A DNA stretch of 57,917 nt from a virus, in IMG/VR virus record IMGVR_UViG_3300042389_000654, positions 1-57,917 of that record, one strand, 5' to 3'. Below are positions 3,446 to 28,730 of this stretch, piece by piece. How positions within the stretch are numbered: position 1 is the first letter of the stretch; every line of letters starts with the position of its first letter. The notes under the pieces are model-generated. The model was not told the origin of the DNA. It was given only the letters and a program-made list of their open reading frames with translations, and searched no databases. Both the position numbers and the translations under genes were made by a program.

Positions 3446-3807
3446 TGGGAGCACGTATTAATTATATATTTAAAAACAATGAGGGGCCGCATGTGGTTTT
3501 ATATAGCCACTGGGGTGAGAGTGATTGGAAGACTGACATTGCTGCAGCTCTAGACCATGCACGTCCAAGGTGGGGCGACGAATCATATCTAACACGTATG
3601 ATTATTAGCTATCTTATTCAAGACCAATTGCTAGACCAGCACGGTTTTGGTATTTATGCTATTAATGATATCTCTAGGGACCTAGGAGATACAACTGTCA
3701 TTATTGATATTAATCAAGAGACTGTCATTGACGACGGTAACAAAGTAGACTGGGACTTATTTATCCAGGCCTATGGACCAAAGATCTTAGCTGAGCAGGC
3801 GGTGTAG
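3445..3807 (+). CDS. Conserved phage hypothetical (SHWGE motif)
   Basis: A 120-residue protein with the pattern VVLYSHWGESDW (about 17-28), then ARPRWGDESYLTRMIIS, which I associate with a common conserved hypothetical of actinobacteriophages. No activity is known. The start overlaps the previous stop by one base (TAATG), with GAGGGAGAAG as ribosome site. It is the last gene before a hairpin and a new promoter. Confidence 0.7.
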   Translation: MGARINYIFKNNEGPHVVLYSHWGESDWKTDIAAALDHARPRWGDESYLTRMIISYLIQDQLLDQHGFGIYAINDISRDLGDTTVIIDINQETVIDDGNKVDWDLFIQAYGPKILAEQAV

Positions 3808-4939: not shown

Positions 4940-5094
4940 GTCATATTGGATATAAAGGTTTGACATATAAGGTTTGGTATGGTAAGGTTTGGCCGCCAGA
5001 CATTACGAAGCCCCTTATAAAATCGCTCAATAACCCATTTCCCTCCCTTTTCCTCCACCAAAACCATATATTAAAAATATCAGTAAGATTTATA

Positions 5095-7844: not shown

Positions 7845-8246
7845 ATGTCAAATCCAATTATAACAATGACAGGTCGTATCGGAACAGAACCAGAAATGAT
7901 TAATTATTCTGGCGGTAAGGGAATTAAATTCCGTATGGTAACAAGTGATAGAGTTAAGAACAAATCTGGAGACTGGGAAGATAAAGATACTTCTTGGTGG
8001 AATGTTGAAGCATGGTCAAGAGTAGCAGAGCAGGCACAACATGTTCTTAAAAAGGGTCAAGAGATTACGGTTGTGGGAACTATTAGAGAAGAGTCTTATA
8101 TTGATAAGGCTGGCAATAATAAGTTTGTTACTCAAATTAAAGCTAACAACATTTCTGTTAGTGTTTATAGCCTACAAAAAAACTTAGTTGGATCTGCGCC
8201 AAGTAAAGATAACTCTTGGAGCGTTGATGGTGACAGCCCATTCTAA
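7845..8246 (+). CDS. ssb: Single-stranded DNA-binding protein (SSB)
   Basis: A 133-residue bacterial-type SSB: OB-fold opening ITMTGRIGTEPEM, the central W-rich strand DTSWWNVEAW (about 49-58), and GQEITVVGTIREE. The acidic C-terminal tip ends DGDSPF, the tail that recruits replication and repair partners. It coats ssDNA during replication and recombination. It has its own promoter and a normal leader. A second, unrelated ssDNA-binding candidate sits next to DnaE at 43561. Confidence 0.93.
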   Translation: MSNPIITMTGRIGTEPEMINYSGGKGIKFRMVTSDRVKNKSGDWEDKDTSWWNVEAWSRVAEQAQHVLKKGQEITVVGTIREESYIDKAGNNKFVTQIKANNISVSVYSLQKNLVGSAPSKDNSWSVDGDSPF

Positions 8247-8247
8247 A

Positions 8248-8349
8248 ATGTTTTGCTCTGTTTGTGGAACTAAGCTAATTAATTCAGACTGCAATAGTTG
8301 TTTTAGTAACTCTAATGCGTTAAAAGAATTTGAGGATGAGGATGACTAA
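8248..8349 (+). CDS. 33-residue zinc-ribbon peptide
   Basis: Starts MFCSVCGTKL and has CNSC further on: two CxxC knuckles in a 33-residue protein, a minimal zinc ribbon with an acidic tail. It begins one base after the SSB stop and overlaps the next start by eight bases, so it is probably translated from the SSB transcript. Confidence 0.5.
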   Translation: MFCSVCGTKLINSDCNSCFSNSNALKEFEDEDD

Positions 8350-8557
8350 CTGGACTGAAGAACTATCTGATGAACATAAAGAACAGATTTGGCATTTTAT
8401 TGTCGAAACTGTTAAAGATATTCGTGAACAAATTGCTCAAGACATTGAGGCTACTAACGGTCTTTGGAAACAAACTAGTGCTGGTAAATCTAGGAAAACT
8501 CAAAAAGCATTTGCAGTATCTGCTGCAATCGCAAGGGGACAAAATGAAAAACTATAG
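8342..8557 (+). CDS. Hypothetical helical protein
   Basis: A 71-residue helical protein without a recognised domain. The ATG at 8342 is preferred to 8330 because GAGGATGAGG lies just before it as ribosome site. Part of the SSB operon. Confidence 0.6.
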   Translation: MTNWTEELSDEHKEQIWHFIVETVKDIREQIAQDIEATNGLWKQTSAGKSRKTQKAFAVSAAIARGQNEKL

Positions 8558-24932: not shown

Positions 24933-24962
24933 ATTATAGCACTATGCCGTCTTTTTTGTCAA
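24933..24962 (-). promoter_or_regulatory. Endolysin promoter (TTGACA-18-TATAAT)
   Basis: On the - strand TTGACA (24962-24957), an 18-base spacer and TATAAT (24938-24933) with TGC before it. It lies within the last codons of the HNH gene and leaves a 26-base leader with AGGAGG. Confidence 0.8.
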
Positions 24963-25217
24963 CCTTTTGTGAGTTCGAATCCTGTGGCAATTTGCACAGA
25001 CTACCTCACATTTTGATATTTCTTTTTTAATTGCTGCCCAAGAAAATCCATCGTGAATCATTCTAGAAATATTGTATTTTTTATTACTAAGGTGATCAAA
25101 ATCCAAAACTATATGGTTGCTTTCTCCACAATCTACACAACCAGATTTTTCTTTAATTTGTTTAAGGCGTTGTTTAAGCTCTTGTTTACCATATTGAACC
25201 AACTCTTTGTCAGTCAT
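24942..25217 (-). CDS. Small HNH endonuclease
   Basis: A 91-residue HNH protein: first zinc pair CVDC (about 27-30), LDFDHL (catalytic His of HNH) and CANCHRIRTHKR near the C-terminus (second pair and final His). Stand-alone HNH proteins of this size are free-standing nickases or packaging-associated nucleases. It starts eight bases after TATAAT and is directly downstream of the structured non-coding stretch. Confidence 0.85.
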   Translation of the reverse strand: MTDKELVQYGKQELKQRLKQIKEKSGCVDCGESNHIVLDFDHLSNKKYNISRMIHDGFSWAAIKKEISKCEVVCANCHRIRTHKRLTKKTA

Positions 25218-25225
25218 AGATCTTA

Positions 25226-25234
25226 ATTATATCA
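25226..25234 (-). promoter_or_regulatory. Near-leaderless extended -10 promoter of the HNH gene
   Basis: TGA-TATAAT on the - strand, eight bases before the ATG at 25217. It means the HNH gene does not depend on the RNA upstream. Confidence 0.55.
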
Positions 25235-25245
25235 GTAATTAAAGA

Positions 25246-25364
25246 GTCCTACACAGGTAGTCCGTCTGCAATGCGCCACGGTCATAATTAATGGGTAACT
25301 AAACCATCACTAAGGTCCTGTGTAGGACATGCCAGATATTTTATGTCGCTGTCTCCCCCGACAG
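25246..25364 (-). ncRNA. Candidate structured RNA with 12-bp closing stem
   Basis: CCTGTGTAGGAC (25317-25328) and GTCCTACACAGG (25246-25257) form a perfect 12-bp stem enclosing 59 bases. Inside, on the - strand, two smaller stems are possible: UGAUGG/CCAUUA with one G-U, and CCGU/ACGG with flanking G-C across a mismatch, giving a three-way junction. A further 5' hairpin CTGTC-GGGGGA-GACAG (25349-25364) precedes it. A -10 box lies at 25369-25374. No ORF fits and no known RNA class was recognised; the strand is inferred from the promoter. Confidence 0.6.
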
Positions 25365-25368
25365 TTAC

Positions 25369-25374
25369 ATTATA
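25369..25374 (-). promoter_or_regulatory. -10 box in front of the RNA candidate
   Basis: TATAAT on the - strand directly after the Hsp20 stop. Transcription would start at about 25362, at the foot of the first hairpin. No clear -35. Confidence 0.5.
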
Positions 25375-25791
25375 CTACTTTATCTTAATTGTTTTTGGTT
25401 TCTTTTCTTCAGGAACAACACGATCAATACTTACGTGTAACATTCCATCTTTAAGGTCAGCACCAGTAACTTCCATATACTCTCCTAGAGCAAATGAACG
25501 TGTAAATTTTCTGGTTGCAATTCCTTTGTGAACAACTTCAGCATCAGTTACTTCAACAATTTCTCCTTTAATAACAAGGGTTCCATTATCTACAGAAACA
25601 TTAATATCATCCTTTGTGAATCCAGCAACTGCTACTGAAAGTCTATATGTATCTTCATCTAATTTAAGAAGATCATACGGAGGATATGCTTGTGAATTTG
25701 TTTTATGTGCGGTATTAAGACGGCCTAACTCTCTGTTAAAGCCAATAAAAAAAGGATCATTGAATAGATCCATAGCAAACTGTGTTACCAT
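25375..25791 (-). CDS. Hsp20-family small heat shock protein
   Basis: A 138-residue protein with an alpha-crystallin domain: DEDTYRLSVAVAGFTKDDI (about 46-64), DNGTLVIKGE, a FTRSFALGE segment and a C-terminal tail with KTIKIK. It is a holdase chaperone; phages carry such genes probably to help virion assembly. It has a leader of about 50 bases with AAAGGGG before the ATG. Confidence 0.92.
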   Translation of the reverse strand: MVTQFAMDLFNDPFFIGFNRELGRLNTAHKTNSQAYPPYDLLKLDEDTYRLSVAVAGFTKDDINVSVDNGTLVIKGEIVEVTDAEVVHKGIATRKFTRSFALGEYMEVTGADLKDGMLHVSIDRVVPEEKKPKTIKIK

Positions 25792-25862: not shown

Positions 25863-26462
25863 TTATTTATAATAAGTTTTGCTTTTTTCATAATCAAAAC
25901 CAAAGACTACAGATGCCCTCGGCTCTGTTACTACGGCTTGATGAATTACGCCTTTGGGTGCAAACAAAACATCTCCAGCATTAATCACATAGGTCTTATA
26001 TTCGGAATCACTACTGTAAATATTCCAAGATACTGAGCCAATACAGTTCCATAAAAGAACATCGTGATCATCAGAATGAATTCCATATTCTGCCTCATTT
26101 CCAATAAAATTAATTAATACCTTGGATCCAGGAAAATCTATATTAAAAGAATTGTTTAATATTTTTAAAAACTCATCATACCATTTTTTATTGTATCCTA
26201 AAATATCAAAAACATGCATATCAAGATTATTATAAATTAGTATATCAGTTATCCTGTTGTTATTTTCTAGAAGCCTGTTTCCAGGTTCTTGTTTTGAATT
26301 TTGTTGATTTAAAGAATGATATTTATAATTTAAGATATCGATAAAATTTTCCCATTTTAAAACATTGGGTAGTTGATTTTTAAATAAAACAACATCATTA
26401 TTATCTCTAGCCTTTTTTATTAACTCTTTAATTTGTGGTGTATCTAAACTCATTTTATCCAT
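25863..26462 (-). CDS. Cupin/JmjC-type 2OG oxygenase candidate
   Basis: A 199-residue protein with a cupin-type metal site: H129-S-D131 (GIHSDDHD) and H174 (KGVIHQAV) within strands SWNIYSS, INAGDVLFAPKG and SVVFGF. This is the arrangement of cupin_8/JmjC hydroxylases, which act on proteins or RNA; no clear 2-oxoglutarate-binding basic residue can be named. It overlaps the metalloprotease gene by eight bases. Fifth oxygenase of this type in the window. Confidence 0.6.
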   Translation of the reverse strand: MDKMSLDTPQIKELIKKARDNNDVVLFKNQLPNVLKWENFIDILNYKYHSLNQQNSKQEPGNRLLENNNRITDILIYNNLDMHVFDILGYNKKWYDEFLKILNNSFNIDFPGSKVLINFIGNEAEYGIHSDDHDVLLWNCIGSVSWNIYSSDSEYKTYVINAGDVLFAPKGVIHQAVVTEPRASVVFGFDYEKSKTYYK

Positions 26463-27840
26463 TCACCTTACTTACAGAAACATAGTCCCCATTGTTTGTC
26501 TTTTTTAATACTTTAATTGTGTAGTTTTGATAGCTAACCGATTCACCAACGCTTAATGTTCCTGTTAACCCAAAGCGTCCAACCTTAGTAGGTTGCAATT
26601 TACTAGGATTTGACACTATTGAAATTGAACCTTTCCCACCAGGCAACTTAGTATCAATTTTGTATACAACAACTCCCTCATATGCAGATGGAAATGTGTT
26701 CTCGGGTGAACTTCTCATCACTTCGATTGCAAGGGCAGAGCTTGGTGACAATTTTAAAATTACTGATTTATTTTCTTTAGTTGCAGTTGATAGTGGCGAT
26801 ATTAGATGAACCGTTTCTTTTGGTGCTGATTCGTCTAAGCAAGCAACTTGACTATCCTCAATCCAATCTAAATACCACCTTTGCCAACCGTGAAGTTCAT
26901 CAAGACCAAAAACATTTCCCATGGGATCCCAGGCTCCTATATTCTTTTGATAATAGTCATAGACGTGAGTTAGTCCTAATAGATGCCCAGTTTCATGAAG
27001 CAGCCAATTATTTTTTGAAGGATCATTAATATATTCTCCTATTGGACCAACTGTGCTTAAGAACGAAGTCTTGCCATCTACATTAAAGCCTGAGCCACCA
27101 GTCGCTCCTCCCTCAGCCTTTGGAAAAAAGGTTGGGGTAACAACATTTACAAAGTCATACTTACTGAAATCAATATCATTATCGGCAATTGTTACTGCTG
27201 ACTGAACAAACCTACTATATTCAAGGCCAAGTGCAGGAGTTGATCCCGCAACATTTACATATTCATTTTTAGTAAAAGTCTTATAGCTTCCTGGAAGTCT
27301 ATAAATCTTTTCGTTTACATCGAATGAAATTCTATATTTCCCGTAGCTCAAACCATTAAACGTTTTTTCGGCCACTGGTATTTGAACATTCTTCCAAGTG
27401 TCTATCGCTTTATTATCTGCTACCAAGTCATCGAAATCAACGAATAAGACTATTGATTTTCTTTCACCAATTGACGGGATATATCTTTGATTCCTTGGAA
27501 AACCAAGATAGGAGTCTGTATCTTGATTTGTATAGGGCAATTTACAAAGTTCTGAATTTACATATACCGAACTTTCACTAACCGCTGGGTTTGGAGTCAG
27601 CGTTAGGGTCGGCGTTGGGGTCGGCGTTGGAGTTGGTTTAATAACCGTGAAGCCTTTGCTCCAAATTAATTTTTTGCCTGACTTGATACAGGTATAGTTT
27701 TTATTTAAATAAACAACTTTTTGTTTAAATACTTTGCATTTAGATCCAGGATTAATCTTTGGTGCAGAAATTGCTACTGCAGGAATTAAAGAAAGAGAAA
27801 GAGCAATTAATAAACTTTTAGCAAAATTACGCATTGTCAT
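26455..27840 (-). CDS. Secreted zinc metalloprotease
   Basis: A 461-residue protein. A signal peptide (about 1-26, ending AISA) is followed by a small Cys-containing module (about 30-66: GSKCKVF, YTCIKSGKKLIW), a Pro-Thr linker (about 70-88), and a metalloprotease domain with the zinc motif HETGHLLGLTH and a Met in WDPMGN that could be the Met-turn. It resembles M6-like or metzincin enzymes. The N-terminal module is of a kind I associate with secreted proteins of freshwater Actinobacteria, so host origin is likely. A phage would use it on host surface proteins. Confidence 0.8.
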   Translation of the reverse strand: MTMRNFAKSLLIALSLSLIPAVAISAPKINPGSKCKVFKQKVVYLNKNYTCIKSGKKLIWSKGFTVIKPTPTPTPTPTLTLTPNPAVSESSVYVNSELCKLPYTNQDTDSYLGFPRNQRYIPSIGERKSIVLFVDFDDLVADNKAIDTWKNVQIPVAEKTFNGLSYGKYRISFDVNEKIYRLPGSYKTFTKNEYVNVAGSTPALGLEYSRFVQSAVTIADNDIDFSKYDFVNVVTPTFFPKAEGGATGGSGFNVDGKTSFLSTVGPIGEYINDPSKNNWLLHETGHLLGLTHVYDYYQKNIGAWDPMGNVFGLDELHGWQRWYLDWIEDSQVACLDESAPKETVHLISPLSTATKENKSVILKLSPSSALAIEVMRSSPENTFPSAYEGVVVYKIDTKLPGGKGSISIVSNPSKLQPTKVGRFGLTGTLSVGESVSYQNYTIKVLKKTNNGDYVSVSKVNG

Positions 27841-28152: not shown

Positions 28153-28680
28153 CTAAATGCTAATTACGTCAACTGGTCCAATACAGGATGTTGAATACTT
28201 TACTGCTGCTTCAACCGCTAGCTGTGCTCTACGTTTACCATTTTTTTGATGCTTAGTTGTCCATAAAGATCCAAGAGCAAAATCACTCCCCGAACCCATA
28301 GCAAGATAATCGTCTTCATATTCTGTTAATGACATATCGACTGCGTTATGCTCAAATATTCTACCTTTAACTGCAATCAACATTCCAAAATCAGAATCTT
28401 TAGTTATATCTACCCACCAATTTTCATAAAAATTTCTAAGAGAAATAAGAAAGTCTGTATACATAAACTTATCTAAATTCATATTAGATTTTAAGATTGG
28501 TGGTTTAAAGTTATGACGGATTCTTTCTCCATCCATTGTCCCTGCATATCCAAAAAGATATGATCCTATTTTAAATACTTTGGGAGCCTTTAATATTGAA
28601 ATAGAGTCTTCTGTTGAAGCACCACGATCTCCAGCCATATAGATGGTTTTATCTTGTCTTACAACGGCAATGCAAGTCAT
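28153..28680 (-). CDS. Proteasome/HslV-like Ntn hydrolase
   Basis: A 175-residue protein. With ATG at 28680 the mature protein starts TCIAVV after Met removal. Counting from that Thr as 1, Asp17 (AGDR) and Lys33 (APKVFK) fall exactly at the catalytic positions of proteasome beta and HslV subunits; GYAGTMDG and MGSGSDFALGSL also fit the fold. No propeptide is needed, as in HslV. It probably forms a self-compartmentalised peptidase ring. An ATPase partner is not seen, so it could use a host one. The longer start (28725) is rejected because it crosses the promoter. Confidence 0.8.
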   Translation of the reverse strand: MTCIAVVRQDKTIYMAGDRGASTEDSISILKAPKVFKIGSYLFGYAGTMDGERIRHNFKPPILKSNMNLDKFMYTDFLISLRNFYENWWVDITKDSDFGMLIAVKGRIFEHNAVDMSLTEYEDDYLAMGSGSDFALGSLWTTKHQKNGKRRAQLAVEAAVKYSTSCIGPVDVISI

Positions 28681-28686
28681 GAAAAA

Positions 28687-28730
28687 CCCCTTTGGATACG
28701 TATACTCAAGTATAGCATTACCCAAAGGGG
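28687..28730. repeat. Inverted repeat around the Ntn-hydrolase promoter
   Basis: CCCCTTTGG (28687-28695) and CCAAAGGGG (28722-28730), nine perfect pairs around 26 bases. One arm lies in the promoter spacer, the other covers the AAAGGGG ribosome site. It could be an operator pair. Confidence 0.55.

Follow-up and report, generated by a model that had tools for sequence, protein, structure and literature searches.

The closest described counterparts of an RNA directed at ribosomal RNA (rRNA) are the box C/D and H/ACA guides (sno/sRNAs) of archaea and eukaryotes, small structured RNAs in which invariant antisense blocks leave unpaired rRNA bases between them, and the trans-acting antisense small RNAs (sRNAs) of bacteria and phages, which target messenger RNA (mRNA). 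Phage takeover of host translation has so far been attributed mostly to proteins and tRNAs. Helix 69 (H69) of 23S rRNA forms bridge B2a. Mutations in the H69 loop block translation or 70S formation (PMC1190176), and a synthetic peptide nucleic acid (PNA) against Escherichia coli H69 inhibits growth (Kulik et al. 2017, cited in PMC7038079). The 57,917-nucleotide viral record IMGVR_UViG_3300042389_000654 of IMG/VR, hereafter the window, carries between an hsp20 gene and an HNH endonuclease gene a structured non-coding RNA of a family not described before, which lies on the minus strand and contains an invariant core complementary to H69 of actinobacterial 23S rRNA. The window codes for a WhiB protein, an actinobacterial marker whose family matched only Corynebacterium glutamicum among 14 control genomes; an actinobacterial host is therefore likely, and the carriers of the RNA are taken to be phages of freshwater Actinobacteria.

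A structured RNA on the minus strand

An earlier note, made from the sequence of the window, had proposed an unclassified structured RNA at 25246-25364, and every element it listed was found there on the minus strand (Table 1). These are a perfect 12-bp long-range closing stem (P1), a separate GC-rich hairpin at the 5′ end, a -10 box directly upstream and two smaller stems inside P1, one a weak hairpin that overlaps AUGG/CCAU, the other located within CCGUGGCGCAUUGCAGACGG; the interval holds no minus-strand open reading frame of at least 40 amino acids. Folding the plus strand of 25230-25380 gave z = -3.05, which none of 200 shuffles equalled, while the minus-strand RNA alone gave z = -4.05, with 0 of 200 shuffles as good.

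Relatives were first gathered through the HNH and hsp20 proteins, between whose genes the RNA sits in those loci, and a DNA pattern derived from the core matched at least 120 viral contigs. The contigs nearest to the window are identical to it and thus uninformative for covariation. In an alignment of 31 sequences all 341 P1 cells, covering 11 pairs, are standard and 10 of the 11 pairs display two-sided changes; the covariation score was matched by none of 500 shuffles, and versions of the stem slid out of register pair in about half of the cells or fewer. A second alignment comprised the matches in loci found through the HNH protein, so that the RNA sequence played no part in their choice, and here P1 is 99.2% paired with two-sided changes in 8 of 11 pairs. 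The compensatory changes in P1 that the earlier note had named as a check are thus abundant. Across the family P1 measures 11-12 bp and closes a loop of ~55-60 nucleotides (nt). Wobble-type departures in 40 distinct P1 helices, read on the minus strand, comprise 16 G-U and a single A-C, which identifies the minus strand as the RNA strand. The same imbalance rules out a plus-strand RNA that would mimic H69 instead of opposing it, a candidate also disfavoured by the promoter and the neighbouring genes, all of which lie on the minus strand.

The two enclosed stems and the 5′ hairpin, present in the window as described, are less constant among relatives. The P3 region reads GGC-NNNN-GU-GCC, with GAAU on its 3′ side, and its 3-bp core (GGC/GCC) is weakly supported by one pair with two-sided changes; P2 is kept inconsistently, its pairs being broken in some sequences. 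The 5′ hairpin is an optional module found in a minority of relatives, among which its outer pair switches between U-A and A-U (e.g. L272).

Searches against Rfam 15 produced no match at the gathering threshold and none at E-values up to 10 for 25200-25400, and five relatives likewise gave none at the RNA; three tRNAs were the only Rfam matches in the window. ARAGORN and Rfam did not match the RNA as a tRNA or tmRNA, finding only ordinary tRNAs and one tmRNA elsewhere, and riboswitches, 6S RNA and the other Rfam families were equally unmatched, as the earlier note had anticipated in stating that no known class fits. Among cultured phages and 50,697 phage records there was no convincing match, only weak chance BLAST hits inside genes, and no phage RNA against 23S rRNA was found in the literature covered, which leaves out most subscription journals and so may miss a report.

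Table 1. Coordinates of the RNA, its parts and the adjacent genes in the window
Feature	Position	Strand	Basis or remark
-10 box TATAAT, RNA promoter	25369..25374	-	Sequence; adjoins the hsp20 stop codon on its downstream side; predicted start ~25362
5′ hairpin module, GC-rich, optional, GUCGGGGGAGACAGCGAC	25345..25362	-	Module present in a minority of relatives
Linker from hairpin to P1, AUAAAAUAUCUGGCAU	25329..25344	-	Common to a second phage RNA type
P1 5′ strand, GUCCUACACAGG (GTCCTACACAGG)	25317..25328	-	Covariation
Invariant core, ACCUUAGUGAUGGUUUAGUUACC	25294..25316	-	Complement of host 23S rRNA H69 and 3′ flank
P3 stem region, CCGUGGCGCAUUGCAGACGG	25262..25281	-	Fold; weak covariation
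P1 3′ strand, CCUGUGUAGGAC (CCTGTGTAGGAC)	25246..25257	-	Covariation
-10 box TATAAT of HNH gene	25226..25231	-	8 nt before its ATG; conserved in relatives
HNH endonuclease gene, 91 amino acids	24942..25217	-	PHROG 2255, E 4.6e-23; partner gene in nearly all loci, not required
hsp20 gene	25375..25791	-	Pfam PF00011; usual yet optional upstream neighbour

Complementarity of the core to helix 69 and its possible meaning

The invariant core, CCUURG(N)GAUGG-NN-UAGUUACC, is the reverse complement of H69 of actinobacterial 23S rRNA together with its 3′ flank, a point absent from the earlier note. The pattern was fixed from phage conservation before the target was known and then run on ~85,000 bacterial and archaeal genomes, where 118 of 119 matches correspond to the antisense strand of actinobacterial 23S ribosomal DNA (rDNA); Rfam confirmed the 23S gene at the one locus checked (L329). 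The sense target, GGUAACUAUAACCAUCCUAAGGU, spans positions ~1909-1931 in the numbering of E. coli 23S rRNA. The phage core, ACCUUAG-U-GAUGG-UU-UAGUUACC, pairs with 23S rRNA at 19 positions, to which a flanking A can be added. The pairs fall into two or three blocks, whose partners are CCAUC on the 3′ strand of H69, CUAAGG in the flank, and GGUAACUA at the 5′ end and loop of H69. The linker within the core faces U1917-A1919, and an optional bulge lies at the C1924/C1925 boundary. Among 47 distinct sequences from HNH-found loci, 18 of the 19 paired columns hold a single base, with one stray cell in a deleted copy (L070), and the remaining column contains A or G facing U, such that pairing is kept; the variable columns (1.0-1.4 bits) are the bulge and the two linker columns, three positions that vary freely opposite unpaired 23S bases.

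By our own estimate, such a match is expected ~1e-7 times by chance, counting 19 fixed positions (one of them two-fold), four gap forms and 4.7 kb of rRNA. Under strict complementarity scoring the best 23S complement of the loop is the H69 site, a result reached in 1 of 1000 shuffles for the loop and in none of 1000 for the whole RNA. The same scoring revealed no significant complementarity to 16S rRNA for any part of the RNA, nor significant complementarity for the part that follows the core. A 9-nt match between the loop of the 5′ hairpin, GAGACAGCG, and 23S rRNA ~60-80 nt downstream of H69 was likewise rejected (295 of 1000 shuffles). The predicted core duplex has an energy of ~-29 kcal/mol, with opening costs of 6 for the RNA core and 6-7 for H69. 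The target itself is highly conserved: among the 118 genomes of the class to which one matched genome belongs, 59 have a recognisable site, which is exact in 58 and in the other reads CCGUC, still pairing by wobble, while E. coli-type H69 has CGGUC.

The RNA and its 23S complementarity are well supported by these comparisons, and from them we infer an effect on the ribosome. The loop closed by P1 would present the 19-nt invariant element to 23S rRNA and would invade H69 on the free host 50S subunit or on nascent 23S rRNA, forming ~19 base pairs. The resulting duplex, interrupted opposite U1917-A1919 and often also at the C1924/C1925 boundary, would cover A1913 and bridge B2a and interfere with decoding or with the joining of 50S and 30S, through which the phage may slow, bias or re-tune host translation. 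Steric binding is favoured over destruction of the rRNA because the conserved interruptions would make the duplex a poor substrate for RNase III. The reading of the RNA as a trans-acting small RNA of actinobacterial phages, structured and stand-alone, that invades host H69 to slow or re-tune translation is rated at about even chances. The broader proposal, in which a widespread group of actinobacterial phages encodes an effector RNA that docks on 23S H69 as a natural ribosome inhibitor or modulator and takeover tool, is held slightly more tentatively.

Several observations weigh against this proposal. Since a lytic phage depends on functioning ribosomes, simple inhibition would need to be partial or timed. 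Two looser duplex and alignment scorings gave no signal for the same pairing; these allow very large loops, and the target claim thus rests on the fixed pattern and the strict scoring. The conserved bases GUGC and GAAU outside the core have no rRNA partner, hence part of the conservation has another cause. No variant of the RNA aimed at E. coli-type H69 (GACCG) occurred in 2.9 million viral contigs, and host-phage covariation is not demonstrable because the target is invariant across hosts.

The main rival explanation, which appears unlikely, retains the pairing with H69 and assigns it to protecting, chaperoning or altering the modification of the rRNA, for instance by shielding it against rRNA-cleaving toxins of host defence or by steering RluD or TlyA at 1911-1920, and not to blocking translation. 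RluD and TlyA modify the segment to which U1917-A1919 belong; these bases form the unpaired window of the predicted duplex, where pairing resumes at C1920. Cleavage of ribosomes at H69 is known for a bacterial nuclease, which acts on eukaryotic ribosomes (PMC13189344), and all of the target evidence fits protection or modification control equally. Genes for nuclease defence or modification are, however, not linked to the RNA, whose linked gene codes for an HNH protein.

Somewhat less probable still is that the complementarity arose by coincidence or as a by-product, with the core kept by its own fold or by a bound protein while the RNA acts elsewhere. The conserved loop bases lacking an rRNA match, the non-significant loose scores and the ability of part of the core to form P2 are consistent with this. 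The 3′ side of P2, however, varies and breaks pairs against an invariant 5′ side, the variable positions are those without a 23S partner, and the chance expectation given above argues against a fortuitous 19-nt match.

Neighbouring genes, distribution and the optional 5′ hairpin

The RNA lies just upstream of the HNH gene in all 79 of the 80 HNH-found loci that include upstream sequence (L054 starts 87 bases before HNH), whereas only 21 of 76 further hsp20 loci contain it; the link is thus to HNH and not to hsp20. The earlier note had called the proximity to an HNH nuclease suggestive, and the link is real within its clade, although adjacency is not required: L168 and L191, both on contigs coding for WhiB-like proteins, have the RNA without an adjacent HNH gene, and in L217 another gene separates the two. 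In two further loci, L167 and L196, the RNA comes immediately after the tRNA-Arg of a tRNA array, with a -10 box of its own. Of 133 copies, 126 have a -10-like box whose end lies 5-11 nt ahead of P1, which would place the transcription start of most relatives at P1; in the window the box precedes the 5′ hairpin instead.

The 91-residue HNH protein has no Pfam hit, and its PHROG matches are mainly HNH. It is most likely a free-standing homing endonuclease travelling beside a conserved RNA gene, and its mRNA is probably leaderless, judging by the position of its -10 box. Streptomyces phage Elmer carries a related HNH gene in a tRNA cluster; the RNA model gave no match in the stretch concerned, nor in two actinobacterial genomes. 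Three further matches to the core pattern (L184, L185 and L231) lack P1 and were discarded as chance. L070 contains, at 3618-3698, a natural deletion copy: the promoter, the 5′ strand of P1 and the first half of the core have been lost, so that the hsp20 end directly adjoins the second core half. The L168 contig, which codes for WhiB and the anti-H69 RNA, additionally carries a tmRNA (8144-8387, minus strand; tag AKQNQFALAA).

A DNA-level element, in which an rDNA-like homing or recombination site with flanking inverted repeats is used by HNH and the transcript is incidental, is improbable. The H69-H71 region of rDNA is a classic homing site (I-CeuI), and both the constant adjacency in HNH-found loci and the deleted appearance of L070 would fit. 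The changes in P1, however, compensate as in an RNA, with the G-U wobbles on one strand, and the RNA has its own promoter-like box and persists in L168 and L191. Marginally less probable again is a guide that directs the HNH protein to host 23S rDNA or rRNA; strict adjacency and an invariant 19-nt element matching host 23S rRNA would suit it, as against a protein of only 91 amino acids with no other domain detected, the copies without adjacent HNH, and the missing Rfam match to the HEARO/omega-RNA families. A 5′ leader, attenuator or riboswitch of the HNH gene, suggested by the upstream position, is the least probable explanation, since HNH has a -10 box of its own and the RNA precedes other genes in L217, L168 and L191, in agreement with the earlier note's statement that it is not just a leader.

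The 5′ hairpin module is shared with a different RNA, which the earlier note had also not recognised. The exact 18-nt hairpin GUCGGGGGAGACAGCGAC occurs in at least 120 viral contigs. In most of them AAAUAACUGG comes next, and then an H-type pseudoknot (AGUCCUGAGCAUGACUGUAAAAAACUGCUC) whose stems covary; a ribosome-binding site often lies immediately downstream. Because the hairpin is optional and common to both RNAs, the window RNA is a chimera of a hairpin module and an anti-H69 module. The second, unclassified phage RNA is present in L398-L508 (e.g. L398, minus strand near 5047; L441, 1690). Its pseudoknot stems include AGUC/GACU and ACAC/GUGU (S1) and GAGC/GCUC and GGGCA/UGCCC (S2), and further hairpins precede it (CUGCACCCCUUCAUCGGGGAGUCGCAG; GGGCAUCGCUGCCC). 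The pseudoknot element (CCUGAGCA...CUGCUC) also stands alone before the anti-H69 RNA in L203, L209, L238 and L163 (3800-3770, minus strand), where it seems to lie at the 3′ end of the preceding gene in the manner of a transcript-end element.

Elsewhere on the minus strand of the window, a perfect 12/12 sigma-70 promoter (TTGACA-18-TATAAT, with TG before the -10 box) at 24933-24962 precedes a gene for a CHAP-domain lysin, and genes for a reprolysin-like metallopeptidase (26455-27840) and an HslV-family peptidase (28153-28725) lie near hsp20.

Comparison with known systems

HEARO and omega-RNA, the partners of IscB/IsrB, are likewise structured RNAs beside an HNH gene. The locus in the window differs in that its HNH protein is a stand-alone polypeptide of 91 amino acids in which neither RuvC nor another effector domain of RNA-guided HNH nucleases was found, and in that the RNA has its own promoter, also occurs without adjacent HNH and has no family match.

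The phage RNA resembles the sno/sRNA guides in size, structure and the arrangement of its antisense blocks. The C/D boxes (RUGAUGA, and CUGA near the ends) are, however, absent from the window RNA and from the alignment, UGAUGG occurring only inside the core of copies with the U bulge, and the hairpin-hinge-hairpin with terminal ACA of box H/ACA guides is replaced by one closing stem without a 3′ ACA. The phage RNA is furthermore phage-encoded, and to our knowledge bacteria lack the guide proteins of sno/sRNAs.

With the trans-acting antisense sRNAs it has in common a stand-alone gene, its own promoter and presumed pairing through an exposed loop. Its predicted target is, in contrast, H69 of 23S rRNA, and what was found corresponds to an antisense RNA on 23S: a conserved complementarity to a functional rRNA site. 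If the proposed action on the ribosome is correct, phages would have a new takeover route, by way of a conserved RNA whose complement lies at the heart of the 50S subunit, and the structured RNAs of freshwater actinobacterial phages would gain a first function.

The anti-H69 PNA addresses the same rRNA helix in a sequence-specific manner. The PNA is artificial, whereas the phage RNA is natural and folded and would form a duplex with conserved interruptions; should its predicted pairing hold, it would provide a natural model for ribosome-targeting antisense agents, with a binding site defined to the nucleotide.
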